Shown here: positions 8,462 through 19,734 of the stretch, in pieces
Position numbering within the stretch: the first letter of the stretch is position 1
How the letters are laid out: each line of letters opens with the position of its first letter
IMG/VR virus record: IMGVR_UViG_3300006802_000678
Coordinates: 1-21,771 of that record
DNA length: 21,771 nucleotides
Source of the DNA: a virus
Strand: one strand, 5' to 3'
Program-made: the position numbers and the translations under genes
Notes under the pieces: model-generated
Seen by the model: the letters and a program-made list of their open reading frames with translations, nothing else
The model's database searches: none
Told to the model about the DNA's origin: nothing

Positions 8462-9769
8462 ATGGCTGATATTTTTAGCGCACGACGTGGAGAACAAGCA
8501 TCTATTGATGCTCTTAAAAATTATGTTGCCCCTACATTATCTACAGAACAAGAATCAGCTTTAAATGATGCAGCTCTTGGTATTGACCGTAAAGCAGGAA
8601 CTATTACTGATGACCGTACTGGAAATACTTACGACCTTAATAGTGCTCAAGGTAAGAATGTTTTAAAATACAATACTCAAAATTATGAAGATGTAACCAA
8701 TCAACCACCAGGAGATGCACCTGCTGGTACTCATTACGATTGGGATCCATATAATCGTAAATGGACTCTCTATAAAGATAACGGCACTCCAGCATCTGGT
8801 GGAGGCGGTGGTGGTGGAGGCGGTGGCAACACAGGCACCACTGGCAGCACTACTTCATTAACTGATTATTTTGCAAAACAAGCTGCAGATACAGCAGCTG
8901 CTACCGCAACAGCAGGTCGTCAATCTGCTTACGATACTCTTTATAATGAGTTTAATAAATATGGTTTAGGTTCTTTAGTAGAACAATTAAAAGGAATGAT
9001 TACCGATGCAAAGGTATTTCCATCAGAGTTTGCTATTGCTTTGCAAAATACTGAAGAATATAAGAAACGTTTTGCTGCTAATCAAGACCGCATTAAACAA
9101 GGTTTACGAGCGCTAAGTCCAGCAGAGTACATTGGTCTTGAAGATCAGTATCAGAACATTATGCGTAACTATGGTCTACCTGCTTCTTATTACACTAAAG
9201 ATTCTTTAGGTACTCAGGCTGGATTAAATAAGTTTATTGCCAATGACGTATCTGCAGCAGAGTTAGAAGATCGTATTGCTACTGCACAGAAGCGTGTGCT
9301 TAATTCAGATGTTAATGTAATGGATGCGTTAAAGCAGTTCTATCCAGATATTACCAATGGTGACATTCTTGCATACACACTTGACCCTACCAATGCACTT
9401 GAGAACATTAAGCGTAAGGTTACTGCAGCAGAAATTGGTGGTGCCGCACTAGCACAAGGTCTTGGCACAAATGTTGGACGTGCTGAAGAACTTGCTAAAT
9501 ATGGAATCACTAAGGCTCAAGCACAGCAAGGTTATTCAGCAATCGGTGAACTGCTACCAACTGCTACAAAACTTGGTGATATTTATGCTAATCAGGGTCT
9601 TGGTCCATACAACCAAGCAACTGCAGAATCAGAAGTATTTAATACAGCGAATGCAGCAGAGGCTGCACGCAAGCGCAAGAAGCTAACGCAACTTGAACAA
9701 GCCACATTTAGCGGTCAATCAGGTACTGCACAAGGTGCACTTGCAAGAGAACGACAAGGTTCGTTCTAA
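8462..9769 (+). CDS. Structural protein with poly-Gly hinge (435 aa)
   Basis: The ATG lies 3 bases after the previous stop. The N-terminal ~110 residues are followed by ten consecutive glycines (residues 113-122) and a Gly/Thr/Ser linker, so this is a two-part protein joined by a flexible hinge. The C-terminal part (~140-435) is helical, with LSPAEYIGLEDQYQNIMRNY, GLPASYYTK, an IANDVSAAELEDRI stretch and KVTAAEIGGAALAQGLG, then a Lys/Arg cluster and an Ala/Gly/Gln-rich end. I associate this C-terminal layout with unnamed proteins of Actinobacteria phages; no enzymatic motif is seen. It closes the three-gene group and is followed by the structured gap at 9770-9890. Confidence 0.55.
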   Translation: MADIFSARRGEQASIDALKNYVAPTLSTEQESALNDAALGIDRKAGTITDDRTGNTYDLNSAQGKNVLKYNTQNYEDVTNQPPGDAPAGTHYDWDPYNRKWTLYKDNGTPASGGGGGGGGGGNTGTTGSTTSLTDYFAKQAADTAAATATAGRQSAYDTLYNEFNKYGLGSLVEQLKGMITDAKVFPSEFAIALQNTEEYKKRFAANQDRIKQGLRALSPAEYIGLEDQYQNIMRNYGLPASYYTKDSLGTQAGLNKFIANDVSAAELEDRIATAQKRVLNSDVNVMDALKQFYPDITNGDILAYTLDPTNALENIKRKVTAAEIGGAALAQGLGTNVGRAEELAKYGITKAQAQQGYSAIGELLPTATKLGDIYANQGLGPYNQATAESEVFNTANAAEAARKRKKLTQLEQATFSGQSGTAQGALARERQGSF

Positions 9770-9774
9770 CTAAA

Positions 9775-9859
9775 GCCTGCTAACGGAACTACCGGCCCGT
9801 TAGAGCGACAGAACATCCGGGAGTGGGAGCCATACTGCGTACCCCAAACAGTATGAGGC
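9775..9859 (+). ncRNA. Candidate structured RNA / 5' leader of the scaffold gene
   Basis: The 121-base gap before the scaffold gene can fold into a three-way junction. P1: GCCT 9775-9778 with AGGC 9856-9859. P2: CTAACGG 9780-9786 with CCGTTAG 9797-9803, 7 perfect pairs, 10-base loop. P3: CATACTG 9831-9837 with CAGTATG 9849-9855, 7 perfect pairs, 11-base loop. P3 stacks directly on P1. CCGG in the P2 loop (9792-9795) can pair with CCGG at 9817-9820, a possible pseudoknot. By my count 51 of 86 bases (9775-9860) are G or C, clearly above nearby genes. There is no U-tract, so it is not a simple terminator. I match it to no known riboswitch class. Confidence 0.4.
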
Positions 9860-9890
9860 CTACGACAAACATAGAATGGGAGATGGACTA

Positions 9891-10352
9891 ATGTCCAATT
9901 ACGACTACGAGGACGATGACGAATTCACAACGGATTCAAATGATCTCGTTAAACAACTGCGTAAAGCAGCAAAACAGAAGGATAAAGAACTAGCTGAATT
10001 AAAGTCACAGTTCGAGAACCTTAACAAACAATCAAGAGAACGAGCAATTAAAGATGTCCTCGAAGCTCGCGGAGTAAATGGCAAAGTTGCCAAATTTATT
10101 CCACAGGACTTAGACCCAACTGAGGAGTCTTTGTCACGATGGCTTGAAGATAATGCCGATGTATTCGGCTTTCAAGTCGAAGATAAATCACAGCCAGCTG
10201 TTGACCCAGCTCAAGCTGCTGCTTACAAGAAGATGAATAGTGCTGTTGACCAAGGATTAACTCCTGATTCAACAGATGACATTATGAGAAAACTTCTGTC
10301 AGCAAACAGCAAAGAAGAGTTGGACGAAGTAATTCGCAACGCTGGCATTTAA
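9891..10352 (+). CDS. Capsid scaffold / assembly protein (153 aa)
   Basis: I place the start at ATG 9891 because GGAG (9879-9882) lies 8 bases before it; ATG 9876 in the same frame has no ribosome binding site. The protein is very acidic at its N-terminus (NYDYEDDDEF), then carries a charged coiled coil (about residues 13-55: LVKQLRKAAKQKDKELAELK onward), a short globular part (VAKFIPQDLDPTEESLSRWL) and a helical C-terminus. A small, charged, coiled-coil protein immediately upstream of the major capsid gene is the usual form and position of a phage scaffold, which organises coat subunits in the procapsid and leaves before maturation. No protease is seen nearby. Sequence motifs alone are not diagnostic. 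Confidence 0.75.
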   Translation: MSNYDYEDDDEFTTDSNDLVKQLRKAAKQKDKELAELKSQFENLNKQSRERAIKDVLEARGVNGKVAKFIPQDLDPTEESLSRWLEDNADVFGFQVEDKSQPAVDPAQAAAYKKMNSAVDQGLTPDSTDDIMRKLLSANSKEELDEVIRNAGI

Positions 10353-10377: not shown

Positions 10378-11307
10378 ATGGCAGGTAACGTACCTTACGG
10401 TACCCTCACCGGTACCAGTACCATTAGCAACCTCGTTCAGACAGCATATGATCAGTACGTCCGTATGGCGCTACGTTCAATTCCTGTTATGCGAGCACTT
10501 GCTGATGTGAAGCCAGTTCAACAGGCGATGCCAGGTTCATCAGTTGTATTCTCAATCTACTCAGATCTAGCACAAGCTACATCTACATTGACAGAATCTT
10601 CTGACGTATCTTCAATCGCGCTTGGTAATCCAAATCAGATTACCGTAACACTACAGGAATACGGTTCAGCCGTAACCACAACCAAGAAGTTAAACCTAAC
10701 TTCATTCAACGACGTAGATGCAGCACTTGCTGATATCATCGCTTATAACGCTGCAGACTCTATTGACGCAGTTGTTGCAGGTGTTTTGACATCAGGCACA
10801 AACATCATCTACGGCGGTACAGCAACAAACACTGCAGGTATCACAGCTGGTTCAACCATCTCTGTATCTGACATCCGTGCTGCTGTAACAAACCTACGTT
10901 CAAACAAGGCTCTGCCTCGTATTGGCGAATTATATGCTGCTTACCTACACCCTAAGCAGACAGCTGACCTTCGTGCAGAAACAGGTACTGGTGGATTCCA
11001 GGATCTATCTAAGTACGTAGATCGCACACCATTCGTTGCTGGTGCTGTTGGTGTACTTGAAGGTGCGTTCATTGTTGAAACACCTCGTGTACCTTACACA
11101 TCAAACGGTTCAGTCAACGTTTACTCAGCAATCATTGCTGGTCGTGAAGCACTTGCGGAAGCTCAAGGACAAGACATCTCTACTGTCATCGGTCCACAAA
11201 TTGACGCGCTTCGCCGCTTCCACACAATCGGTTGGTACTACTTCGGTGGATGGAACATCCTTCGTACCGCAGCTCTGTACAACATCCAGACAGCAACAGC
11301 TTACTAA
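10378..11307 (+). CDS. Major capsid protein (309 aa)
   Basis: The coat subunit of the head. ATG 10378 is preceded by GAAAGG. The length and layout fit an HK97-fold coat protein of the N4-gp56-like type: N-terminal arm (TSTISNLVQTAYDQYVRMAL), a segment with VKPVQQAMPGSSVVFSIYSD, a beta-rich core (QITVTLQEYGSAVTTTKKLN), a long helix with DVDAALADIIAYNAADSIDA, then DIRAAVTNLRSNKALPRIGE and YAAYLHPKQTADLRAE, ending in a domain with GREALAEAQG. Codon use differs from the flanking genes, with more C-ending codons (29 G+C in the 60 bases 10861-10920), as expected for the most highly expressed virion gene. It follows the scaffold and is itself followed by a strong hairpin. The family name is my best recognition, not a search result. 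Confidence 0.85.
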   Translation: MAGNVPYGTLTGTSTISNLVQTAYDQYVRMALRSIPVMRALADVKPVQQAMPGSSVVFSIYSDLAQATSTLTESSDVSSIALGNPNQITVTLQEYGSAVTTTKKLNLTSFNDVDAALADIIAYNAADSIDAVVAGVLTSGTNIIYGGTATNTAGITAGSTISVSDIRAAVTNLRSNKALPRIGELYAAYLHPKQTADLRAETGTGGFQDLSKYVDRTPFVAGAVGVLEGAFIVETPRVPYTSNGSVNVYSAIIAGREALAEAQGQDISTVIGPQIDALRRFHTIGWYYFGGWNILRTAALYNIQTATAY

Positions 11308-12984: not shown

Positions 12985-15305
<2,321 letters not shown>

Positions 15306-17659: not shown

Positions 17660-18204
17660 TGCCTATTCTTGGTATTTATGCTTCATCAATGCAACCAGCG
17701 TTAAATGCTTCATCTTATGATTCTATTGCTACTGTAACTGTCGGCGCTGGTGGAACAGCCACCGTTAGTTTATCTTCTATACCTAGCACCTATAAACACT
17801 TACAGGTTCGTATTACAAGCCTTGCGCCATCACTTACATCAGGTTTGATTTACTTTAATGGTGGTGCTGGAACTTATGCTTGGCACGAATTAAAGGGTAA
17901 TGGTTCATCTGCTTCGGCAACCGCAGGAACAAGCACAAATGTTTTGTATAGCACATACAATGAAACATCAACTGCAAGTTATACAGGAGCAGCAATCGTT
18001 GATATTTTAGATTATACAAACACTAATAAAGCAAAAACTATTCGTGTATTAAGCGGTTCAGATGCTAATGGTGCAGGTTCAGTATTTCTTCGTTCAGGAG
18101 TTTCGTCAGATACTAGCGCAATAACATCAGTTAATTTTATTGTTTCAGGTGGCGGAAACTGGGCGCAATACTCATCATTCGCACTTTACGGGGTGAAAGG
18201 CTAA
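17659..18204 (+). CDS. Tail adhesin-like beta protein, paralogue 1 (181 aa)
   Basis: First of three related Ser/Thr/Gly-rich beta proteins. Landmarks: SIATVTVGAGGTATVSLSSI at the N-terminus, PSTYKHLQVRIT, a variable middle (YAWHELKGNGSSAS...), NKAKTIRVLSGSDANG, and the closing GNWAQYSSFALYGVKG. The same start (T-VGAGG-...-SIP-TY) and end (Y-S---LYGVK) occur at 18713 and 19734, whereas the middle differs, as seen for phage receptor-binding or tip proteins. Joined to its neighbours by one-base TAATG overlaps; the gene that follows is an HNH endonuclease. Confidence 0.7.
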   Translation: MPILGIYASSMQPALNASSYDSIATVTVGAGGTATVSLSSIPSTYKHLQVRITSLAPSLTSGLIYFNGGAGTYAWHELKGNGSSASATAGTSTNVLYSTYNETSTASYTGAAIVDILDYTNTNKAKTIRVLSGSDANGAGSVFLRSGVSSDTSAITSVNFIVSGGGNWAQYSSFALYGVKG

Positions 18205-18713
18205 TGGCTTCTACATATACAGAACAATTAGAGAAAATTGTTAGCCGTTTCCAACCTCAAGAAAATGGTTGCTGGTATCTTGGTGCAAGTAATCATCCAG
18301 GCGTAACTAAGCCTGATAGCAAAGGTTATTCCAATACTAAAATTGGTTGGCCAAATTCTAAATCAATACGCGTTCATAAATTATCTTGGTTATATTACAA
18401 AGGTGATATTCCAGAAGGTATGGTCATAGACCATATGTGTCATAACCCATCTACTTGTGTAGGTGGTGTAACTTGTCAGCATCGCAGATGCGTTAATCCA
18501 GATCATCTTCAGTTAATTACAGCTCCTGAGAATAATGCTAAAACAGTACGAGTATTAAAGTATCGTACTCATTGCAAGAATGGACATAAGTTGGAAGATA
18601 ATACCTATCAATATAAGTCAGGCAAATACACACGCTTTGCTTGCTATACCTGCAAAAAGGAACAAACTAAAATGAACCAACGCAAGTATCGTGCTGAAAA
18701 GGTAGGTGTCTGA
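18204..18713 (+). CDS. HNH endonuclease 1 (169 aa)
   Basis: A DNA-cutting enzyme of the HNH_3 (homing endonuclease) type. Motif: VHKLSWLYYKGDIPEGMVID with H58, then D76-H77, and N98/H101 in NPDHLQLIT. Cysteines C79, C85, C91 and C96 plus H93 form a Cys-rich insert inside the motif, probably a structural zinc site. A second site near the C-terminus is C124-x2-G-H128 and C147-x2-C150, the familiar CKNGH...CYTC ribbon. N-terminal NGCWYLGAS... is typical of these proteins. It is a free-standing gene, not an intron or intein insertion, tucked between two tail-protein paralogues with TAATG in and TGATG out. GAAAGG precedes the start. All metal-site residues look intact, so I expect activity. Confidence 0.9.
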   Translation: MASTYTEQLEKIVSRFQPQENGCWYLGASNHPGVTKPDSKGYSNTKIGWPNSKSIRVHKLSWLYYKGDIPEGMVIDHMCHNPSTCVGGVTCQHRRCVNPDHLQLITAPENNAKTVRVLKYRTHCKNGHKLEDNTYQYKSGKYTRFACYTCKKEQTKMNQRKYRAEKVGV

Positions 18714-19210
18714 TGGCGGCGACCTATACTAGTATAGCGACTACTACGCTAGGCAGCGATACAGGAATAGTTACTTTTGCTAGCATTAGTGGTTCTTATA
18801 CCGACCTTATTTTAGTATGCAAAACTGCAAAAAACGGCGGCGGCGCAGGAACTTTAAGGCTTCAATTCAATTCAGACACTGGTAGCAATTATTCTTATAC
18901 TCGTATATTTGGTGATGGAACTAGCGCATATAGCGATAGAGGCACAAGCGAAACTGGTGCAGGAGTGGCAATTCTTGGCGATGTGGTTATTTCTTCTGCT
19001 GGAACTTTTATTGTGCAATTACAGAATTATTCAAATTCAAGCACTTATAAAACTGCAATTAGTCGTGGCTCCGATAGCGCTGGTGGTTATGTTTCTGCTT
19101 ATGCTTCTTTATGGCGATCAACTTCTGCTATCAACCGCATAGATATTTATTCGACTACTAATCTTCGTTCTGGTTCAACCTTTACCCTTTACGGAATTAA
19201 GGCGGCATAA
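18713..19210 (+). CDS. Tail adhesin-like beta protein, paralogue 2 (165 aa)
   Basis: Related to the proteins at 17659 and 19734. Start TSIATTTLGSDTGIVTFASI; end LRSGSTFTLYGIKAA; GSYTDLILV corresponds to TYKHLQV and TYTDLVI in the others. The middle (RLQFNSDTGSNYSYTRIFGD, YASLWRSTSAINRIDIYST) is its own, though WRSTSAI matches WSNTSAI of paralogue 3. All-beta, no membrane segment. It is flanked on both sides by HNH genes, with TGATG and TAATG junctions, so an HNH plus adhesin pair looks like the mobile or duplicated unit. Confidence 0.7.
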   Translation: MAATYTSIATTTLGSDTGIVTFASISGSYTDLILVCKTAKNGGGAGTLRLQFNSDTGSNYSYTRIFGDGTSAYSDRGTSETGAGVAILGDVVISSAGTFIVQLQNYSNSSTYKTAISRGSDSAGGYVSAYASLWRSTSAINRIDIYSTTNLRSGSTFTLYGIKAA

Positions 19211-19734
19211 TGGCTGACTTATCACCAGTAAAATACTTAGAGCCTTTACATAAAGAAGGACTTGCTAGTTGGGATTTGCTAGAAAGAATGTTTAATAATG
19301 TAAACGTATTAAATTATTCTAAATGTTGGTTATGGGATAAATCTCTTAACCCAGATGGCTATGGCGTAACCACAAGAAAGATAGAAAAAAAGATTCACGG
19401 TTTACTTGTTCATAGAGTTGCTTACTATTATATGTACGGAACTATTGATGACAATATGGTTGTAGACCATACTTGCCACGATCCTAAGACTTGCGTTAAT
19501 GGCATTGAATGTCAACATCGTAGATGCTATAACCCATATCATTTACGTCTAATAACTCGTGCTGAGAATACAGCTGCGGGCGCTAACCCAAGAATTAATG
19601 TTGGTTTATGTAGAAATAATTTACACGAATGGATAGAAGAAAACGTGCGTGTATATCCAAGTGGCAAGCAAGTCTGTATTCCTTGCCAAAAGGAACAAAT
19701 TAGACGTAAGCGTTTAAGAAAGGTTGGTGCTTGA
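19210..19734 (+). CDS. HNH endonuclease 2 (174 aa)
   Basis: A second HNH_3-type endonuclease, clearly homologous to the one at 18204 but not a recent copy. Motif: LVHRVAYYYMYGTIDDNMVV with H68, D86-H87, then C89, C95, C101, H103, C106 and NPYHLRLIT with N108/H111. The CQHRRC-NP-HL block is shared with HNH 1. The C-terminal site is C156-x2-C159 but its partner is altered: C134-RNNL-H139 instead of CxxGH, one residue longer. The N-terminus is extended (LHKEGLASWDLLERMFNN). Local base composition is AT-rich (16 G+C in the 60 bases 19261-19320), below the virion genes, consistent with separate acquisition. It overlaps both neighbours by one base. Confidence 0.88.
   Translation: MADLSPVKYLEPLHKEGLASWDLLERMFNNVNVLNYSKCWLWDKSLNPDGYGVTTRKIEKKIHGLLVHRVAYYYMYGTIDDNMVVDHTCHDPKTCVNGIECQHRRCYNPYHLRLITRAENTAAGANPRINVGLCRNNLHEWIEENVRVYPSGKQVCIPCQKEQIRRKRLRKVGA

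Follow-up and report, generated by a model that had tools for sequence, protein, structure and literature searches.

A covarying pseudoknot-containing RNA leader, a candidate translational regulator, precedes the scaffold gene in Streptomyces and freshwater phages

Synthesis of the scaffolding protein of phage P22 (gene 8) is tuned post-transcriptionally to the status of assembly. Post-transcriptional control of scaffold synthesis was reportedly proposed in P22 work decades ago. To our knowledge, P22 has no described operator in the form of a conserved RNA, and scaffold control of this kind has so far been without one that can be tested. In the RNA phages MS2 and Qbeta, the coat-protein operator hairpin is located at the start codon of the replicase gene. 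Autogenous translational operators can also include pseudoknots: in T4, the gene 32 leader carries one 67 nt before the start codon (PMC3014915), and the same source mentions a pseudoknot near the initiation site in the autogenous control of ribosomal protein S15 (rpsO). Here we describe an RNA family, compact, with strong covariation and without an entry in Rfam, that is located before a phage scaffold gene and is very probably a cis-regulatory leader. As a structured translational leader it is of a known kind, but we consider the family itself, and its location, to be new. Text searches retrieved no description of this leader; subscription journals were mostly outside their coverage, and an unseen description there is possible.

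The leader was found in a stretch of 21,771 nucleotides (IMG/VR record IMGVR_UViG_3300006802_000678), hereafter called the window; the leader and the genes on either side of it lie on its + strand. The gap in which a previous sequence-only reading had proposed a structured RNA is present at 9770-9890 and is 121 bases long, and its G+C content over 9775-9859 is 50/85, correcting a previous count of 51/86. It separates the stop codon (9767-9769) of an ORF encoding a 435-aa protein (8462-9769) from the ATG at 9891 of a gene encoding a scaffold-like capsid assembly protein (9891-10352, 153 aa, MSNYDYEDDD...). The next gene of the operon encodes the major capsid protein (10378-11307; PHROG 1357, major head protein, E 3e-75). 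The scaffold-like protein belongs to PHROG 7813, of unknown function, and has relatives in every clade described below; a search for relatives among the GTDB genomes found none. One of its clade II homologues shows a weak resemblance to the DUF4355/Gp46 scaffold family (E 0.014, under the Pfam cut-off). The predicted structure of the scaffold-like protein is a long helix modelled with moderate confidence (pLDDT 69), in which no RNA-binding fold was recognised. The 435-aa protein corresponds to PHROG 8424, in which no function is assigned, and its C-terminal part is 36-38% identical in Streptomyces phages. It contains a poly-glycine run in the window, at a position where the homologue of Caudovirales sp. 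ct2KA10 (L083:2719-4332) carries a long Gly-Thr repeat (TGTGTG in the DNA). Elsewhere in the window, HNH-endonuclease-like motifs (DHMCHNP...CQHRRCVNPDHL) occur in a pair of small, related ORFs inserted among tail-type genes at 18204-18713 and 19210-19734, and a collagen-like protein of about 290 aa with G-x-T/P repeats is encoded at 13329-14207, where repetition also produces a long open frame on the opposite strand.

By folding energy alone the window's leader does not stand out (z -0.51 compared to shuffles) and its stems could have been chance, so we turned to comparative data. Since a DNA-level search in named phages gave no match, relatives were sought by protein. Searching IMG/VR with the downstream protein produced 80 relatives; the element is present in the window and in 78/78 of the relatives with a complete upstream region. 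The clade I alignment (A2) comprises 66 distinct sequences and 25 pairs. Clades II and III were gathered with the scaffold genes of Caudovirales sp. ct2KA10, whose major capsid protein is 48-49% identical, and of Streptomyces phage FlowerPower as queries, giving alignments of 53 distinct rows (clade II, A6) and 22 sequences (the Streptomyces clade III, A5). Additional searches brought in further clades. A covariance model, R1, gave a single match in each locus, where the element was expected, and also detected clade II. A second model built from clade III (R2) gave one strong match per Streptomyces locus. At the edge of detection, R1 gave no match in loci L305-L307 and L314, although inspection by eye shows a CCCC loop there and a pattern resembling the pseudoknot. 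No strong second copy was found elsewhere in the phages.

In the clade I alignment, 95.9% of the cells form a standard pair and 17/25 pairs have changed on both sides, compared to at most 6 double-changed pairs when one strand was slid by 1-3 bases. Double changes affect 15/27 pairs in clade II and 17/25 in clade III. Significance was assessed with a self-written null model, R-scape-like but distinct from R-scape, in which the tree is retained and each branch receives as many substitutions, of the same types, as in the real data. With this phylogeny-preserving null, the significant pairs among those listed in our structures were 8/25, 5/27 and 4/25 in clades I, II and III, respectively, with 1, 2 and 1 significant unlisted pairs. 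The unlisted pairs of clade I (columns 15-24, G-U versus A-C) and clade III (columns 14-26) would both lengthen helix S1 and could be real extensions of it; the two of clade II fall inside helix S2. Covariation among homologues, named in advance as a check on whether the gap encodes a functional RNA, was thus found in all helices of three clade alignments.

The fold supported by these alignments is an H-type pseudoknot (order S1a-S2a-S1b-S2b) followed by a long hairpin, P2, and both S1 and S2 covary in three clades. S1 is formed by CUAACGG (9780-9786) and CCGUUAG (9797-9803), one of the two perfect 7-bp stems noticed from the sequence (CTAACGG/CCGTTAG); all of its pairs (7/7) show double compensatory changes among 66 homologues. 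Loop L1 (9787-9790) is 4 nt long in 66/66 clade I homologues. The 5′ strand of S2 (ACCGG, 9791-9795) lies within the S1 loop and covaries with CCGGG at 9817-9821. In the present phage A9791 is mismatched, and the pairing consists of CCGG (9792-9795) with CCGG (9817-9820), an interaction that had been put forward as a possible tip-to-junction contact and proves to be real, since it corresponds to S2 and covaries across clades. S2 occurs as CCGG/CCGG, as CUGG/CCAG, in the swapped form CCAG/CUGG (L039) and, in other clades, as UCGG/CCGA. We also evaluated S2 on alignment A9, which was fitted without S2 from the matches of R1, a model likewise built without S2; 93.3% of the cells were paired, a value reached in 0/500 shuffles. 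Loop L3 (9804-9816, 13 nt in the window) starts with a conserved AGYGA and contains on average 53% A across the 66 homologues. Loop lengths in clade I are 4 for L1, 1-2 for L2 and 11-15 for L3, and the sequences of S2 and L3 differ from clade to clade. The end of S2 is located 71 nt upstream of the scaffold start codon.

P2 is an extended hairpin (9823-9863) with an invariant CCCC-type loop. Its inner stem, CAUACUG (9831-9837) with CAGUAUG (9849-9855), is the second of the perfect 7-bp stems (CATACTG/CAGTATG) and covaries. The outer stem pairs GUGGG (9823-9827), followed by a conserved AGCC, with CCUAC (9859-9863) and shows compensatory changes. U-G pairs are frequent in P2 (33/66 at one position) and would be C-A on the opposite strand; the RNA is therefore the + strand transcript. 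The stems had been read as a three-way junction closed by GCCT/AGGC (9775-9778/9856-9859). Although this 4-bp stem can form in the window, it does not covary (0.106 versus 0.127 for shuffles), has just 1 pair with any double change, and part of its 3′ strand is used by the P2 outer stem. The junction is thus replaced by a pseudoknot and a hairpin reaching 9863.

The CCCC of the P2 apical loop (9842-9845), found in every clade I homologue, is complementary to the Shine-Dalgarno (SD) region of the scaffold gene (GGGAG, 9878-9882, conserved in clade I); the loop reads CCCUA in clade III. Complementarity of at least 4 nt between the P2 loop and its own SD was observed in 81% of the distinct leaders of clade I, 94% of clade III and 75% of clades IV/V, compared to 20-35% when the loop was matched with the SDs of other genes. 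Clade II showed no enrichment (20% versus 24% with the SDs of other genes). Because CCCC and GGG hardly vary, this pairing is unprovable by covariation; the combination of loop CCUAA with SD UUAGG in L210, where most relatives have CCUAG and CUAGG, is possibly one compensatory change.

Folding the leader together with the first codons first revealed a further hairpin, GGAC-UAAU-GUCC (9885-9896), in which the AUG (9891-9893) straddles loop and stem. In clades I, II and IV/V, all distinct initiation regions (78/78) have a start-codon hairpin of at least 4 pairs; a comparable hairpin occurs at 7.7% of 466 other gene starts of the same loci and at 3-11% after shuffling of the 5′ flank. Its letters change by clade with pairing kept (GGAC/GUCC, GUUGCU/AGCAAC, GUUGC/GCAAC, AUUGC/GCAAU), and these variants are accompanied by a switch of the Ser codon between UCC and AGC; in clade I, every scaffold gene uses UCC for Ser2. 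The hairpin is absent from the Streptomyces clade. We also considered an RNA constraint extending deeper into the scaffold coding sequence and rejected it: the first codons are not unusually conserved as a block (16/124 windows were as low), and Ser2 alone stands out.

An IMG/VR search with the P2 pattern, blind to gene content, identified 33 loci. The next gene encoded a scaffold according to HMM comparison in 31 of them, and the remaining 2 were cut by the contig end with an MSN start visible. Among 84,980 species genomes of bacteria and archaea, the same pattern had no real match; two chance matches fell in unrelated coding genes and lacked the pseudoknot. In Streptomyces phages FlowerPower, Abafar and WRightOn, 14-22 annotated tRNA genes separate the homologue of the 435-aa gene from the scaffold gene, and the leader sits between the final one (tRNA-Val) and the scaffold gene, beginning at or adjoining the last base of tRNA-Val, whereas the same gap holds only the leader RNA in freshwater phages. 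As the gene on the upstream side varies, being either the 435-aa gene or tRNA-Val, and the downstream gene stays across clades, the element belongs to the scaffold gene, in front of which the sequence-only reading had placed it. Arrays of up to 22 annotated tRNA genes occupy the leader slot in several related Streptomyces phages (L082:4345-6416, L084:3112-4357, L085:1837-3857, L199, L201, L207, L214, L224 and L229). A degenerate tRNA-like sequence, with acceptor GGGCGAG/CUCGUCC and a perfect T-arm, directly precedes the leader of a divergent relative (L301:2714-2800); it received no ARAGORN call and a sub-threshold tmRNA match in Rfam.

No Rfam 15 family matched the window, none matched the leader region even at E up to 10, and none overlapped the leader in 8 divergent relatives, in line with the initial impression that no recognised riboswitch class was present. 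A tRNA or tmRNA was rejected, ARAGORN finding none in the window, and so was an intrinsic terminator: as already noticed, the + strand of the gap carries no terminator U tract, and no G+C-rich hairpin followed by one. Some Streptomyces phages have UUUU after P2, located inside the covarying outer stem. A stop-codon readthrough pseudoknot was also discarded, since the 121 nt from stop to ATG are not a multiple of 3 and the gap length varies among homologues.

The comparative data establish the pseudoknot, P2 and the hairpin at the start codon, show which strand is the sense strand and reveal an unvarying link to the scaffold gene. They place the three covarying or clade-compensated parts of the leader around the scaffold initiation region. 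This arrangement suggests that the structured 5′ leader probably acts in cis on the initiation of scaffold translation. We propose that the C-rich loop of P2 would pair with the scaffold SD and, together with the start-codon hairpin, lower initiation. The pseudoknot could provide a platform for a trans-acting regulator, most likely unassembled scaffold protein, whose binding would shift the balance and bring scaffold output into step with capsid assembly. Both T4 gene 32 and the autoregulation of the P22 scaffold offer analogies by which unassembled scaffold would be the most economical regulator. That scaffold or capsid protein is the ligand of the leader is possible but less likely than not. 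The complete scheme, in which free scaffold (or capsid) protein would bind the pseudoknot and switch translation via C-loop/SD pairing, assembly status thereby setting scaffold synthesis, is possible but rather doubtful. Control of the scaffold-to-capsid dosage, an idea already raised from the sequence, is a plausible candidate role.

As the main rival explanation, which we regard as unlikely, the leader would protect the 5′ end of the mRNA or serve in its processing. Pseudoknot and P2 would then form a compact 5′ end shielding the scaffold-capsid mRNA from 5′-to-3′ decay, an end that in Streptomyces phages would come from 3′-end processing of the tRNA-Val abutting S1. Exonucleases can be blocked by compact pseudoknots. 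The start of the leader is, moreover, a natural segment boundary, given by the end of the last tRNA at or beside it in Streptomyces phages and, in the freshwater clade, by the upstream stop codon, which lies 0-9 nt before a conserved RCCU in 79 clade I homologues (GCCU in the window, 5 nt after the stop codon). However, the conserved start-codon hairpin, the loop-SD complementarity and the end of the leader near the SD are left unexplained.

It is quite improbable that the leader is a riboswitch-like or host-factor sensor, in which a host protein or small molecule would be bound by the pseudoknot, with the pairing of P2 loop and SD acting as expression platform. Known riboswitches do combine a pseudoknot whose L3 is A-rich with an expression platform complementary to it, and the A content of L3 fits this layout. 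Yet the element precedes one phage structural gene only and never host metabolic genes, the large genome survey gave only its two chance matches, Rfam has no corresponding family, and the variation of S2 and L3 by clade leaves no constant ligand pocket visible across all clades. Still less probable is a trans-acting packaging or assembly RNA (similar to the phi29 pRNA) or an independent non-coding RNA. Such a role would suit a highly structured RNA within a capsid operon, but the leader is always directly upstream of the scaffold initiation region and structurally continuous with it, and the + strand of the gap has no promoter-like or terminator-like site. Finally, functionless chance stems in a G+C-rich gap, with which the ordinary folding energy would agree, are refuted by compensatory changes in every helix of three clade alignments, leaving this explanation a negligible probability.

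The family spans hundreds of phages or more, and since cultured Streptomyces phages are among them the proposal is directly testable; the leader can also serve as a structural marker to locate scaffold genes in poorly annotated phages. If the proposal is true, capsid assembly status would directly set scaffold synthesis through a new RNA class.

Compared to the systems described above, P22 scaffold autoregulation differs in that the phages studied here are not P22-like. The leader resembles the MS2/Qbeta operator in having its start codon in a small hairpin within an operon of virus structural or assembly genes; it differs in belonging to a DNA phage, in its sequence, in the combination with a pseudoknot and in having no known bound protein. 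It has no sequence relation to the rpsO operator, and its pseudoknot lies about 70 nt upstream without including the SD. The nearest known analogue is the pseudoknot operator of T4 gene 32. As in T4, T2 and RB69, a phage mRNA leader carries an H-type pseudoknot ahead of the ribosome-binding site of the gene in question, which here is without exception the scaffold gene immediately downstream. In contrast, the gene 32 operator regulates a single-strand DNA-binding protein, the present leader has an additional C-loop hairpin and a start-codon hairpin between pseudoknot and gene, it is G+C-richer rather than A+U-rich, and autoregulation is proposed for it by analogy. If this analogy is true, the leader would be a second viral pseudoknot operator besides that of T4 gene 32, kept in Streptomyces phages and in diverse freshwater phages.
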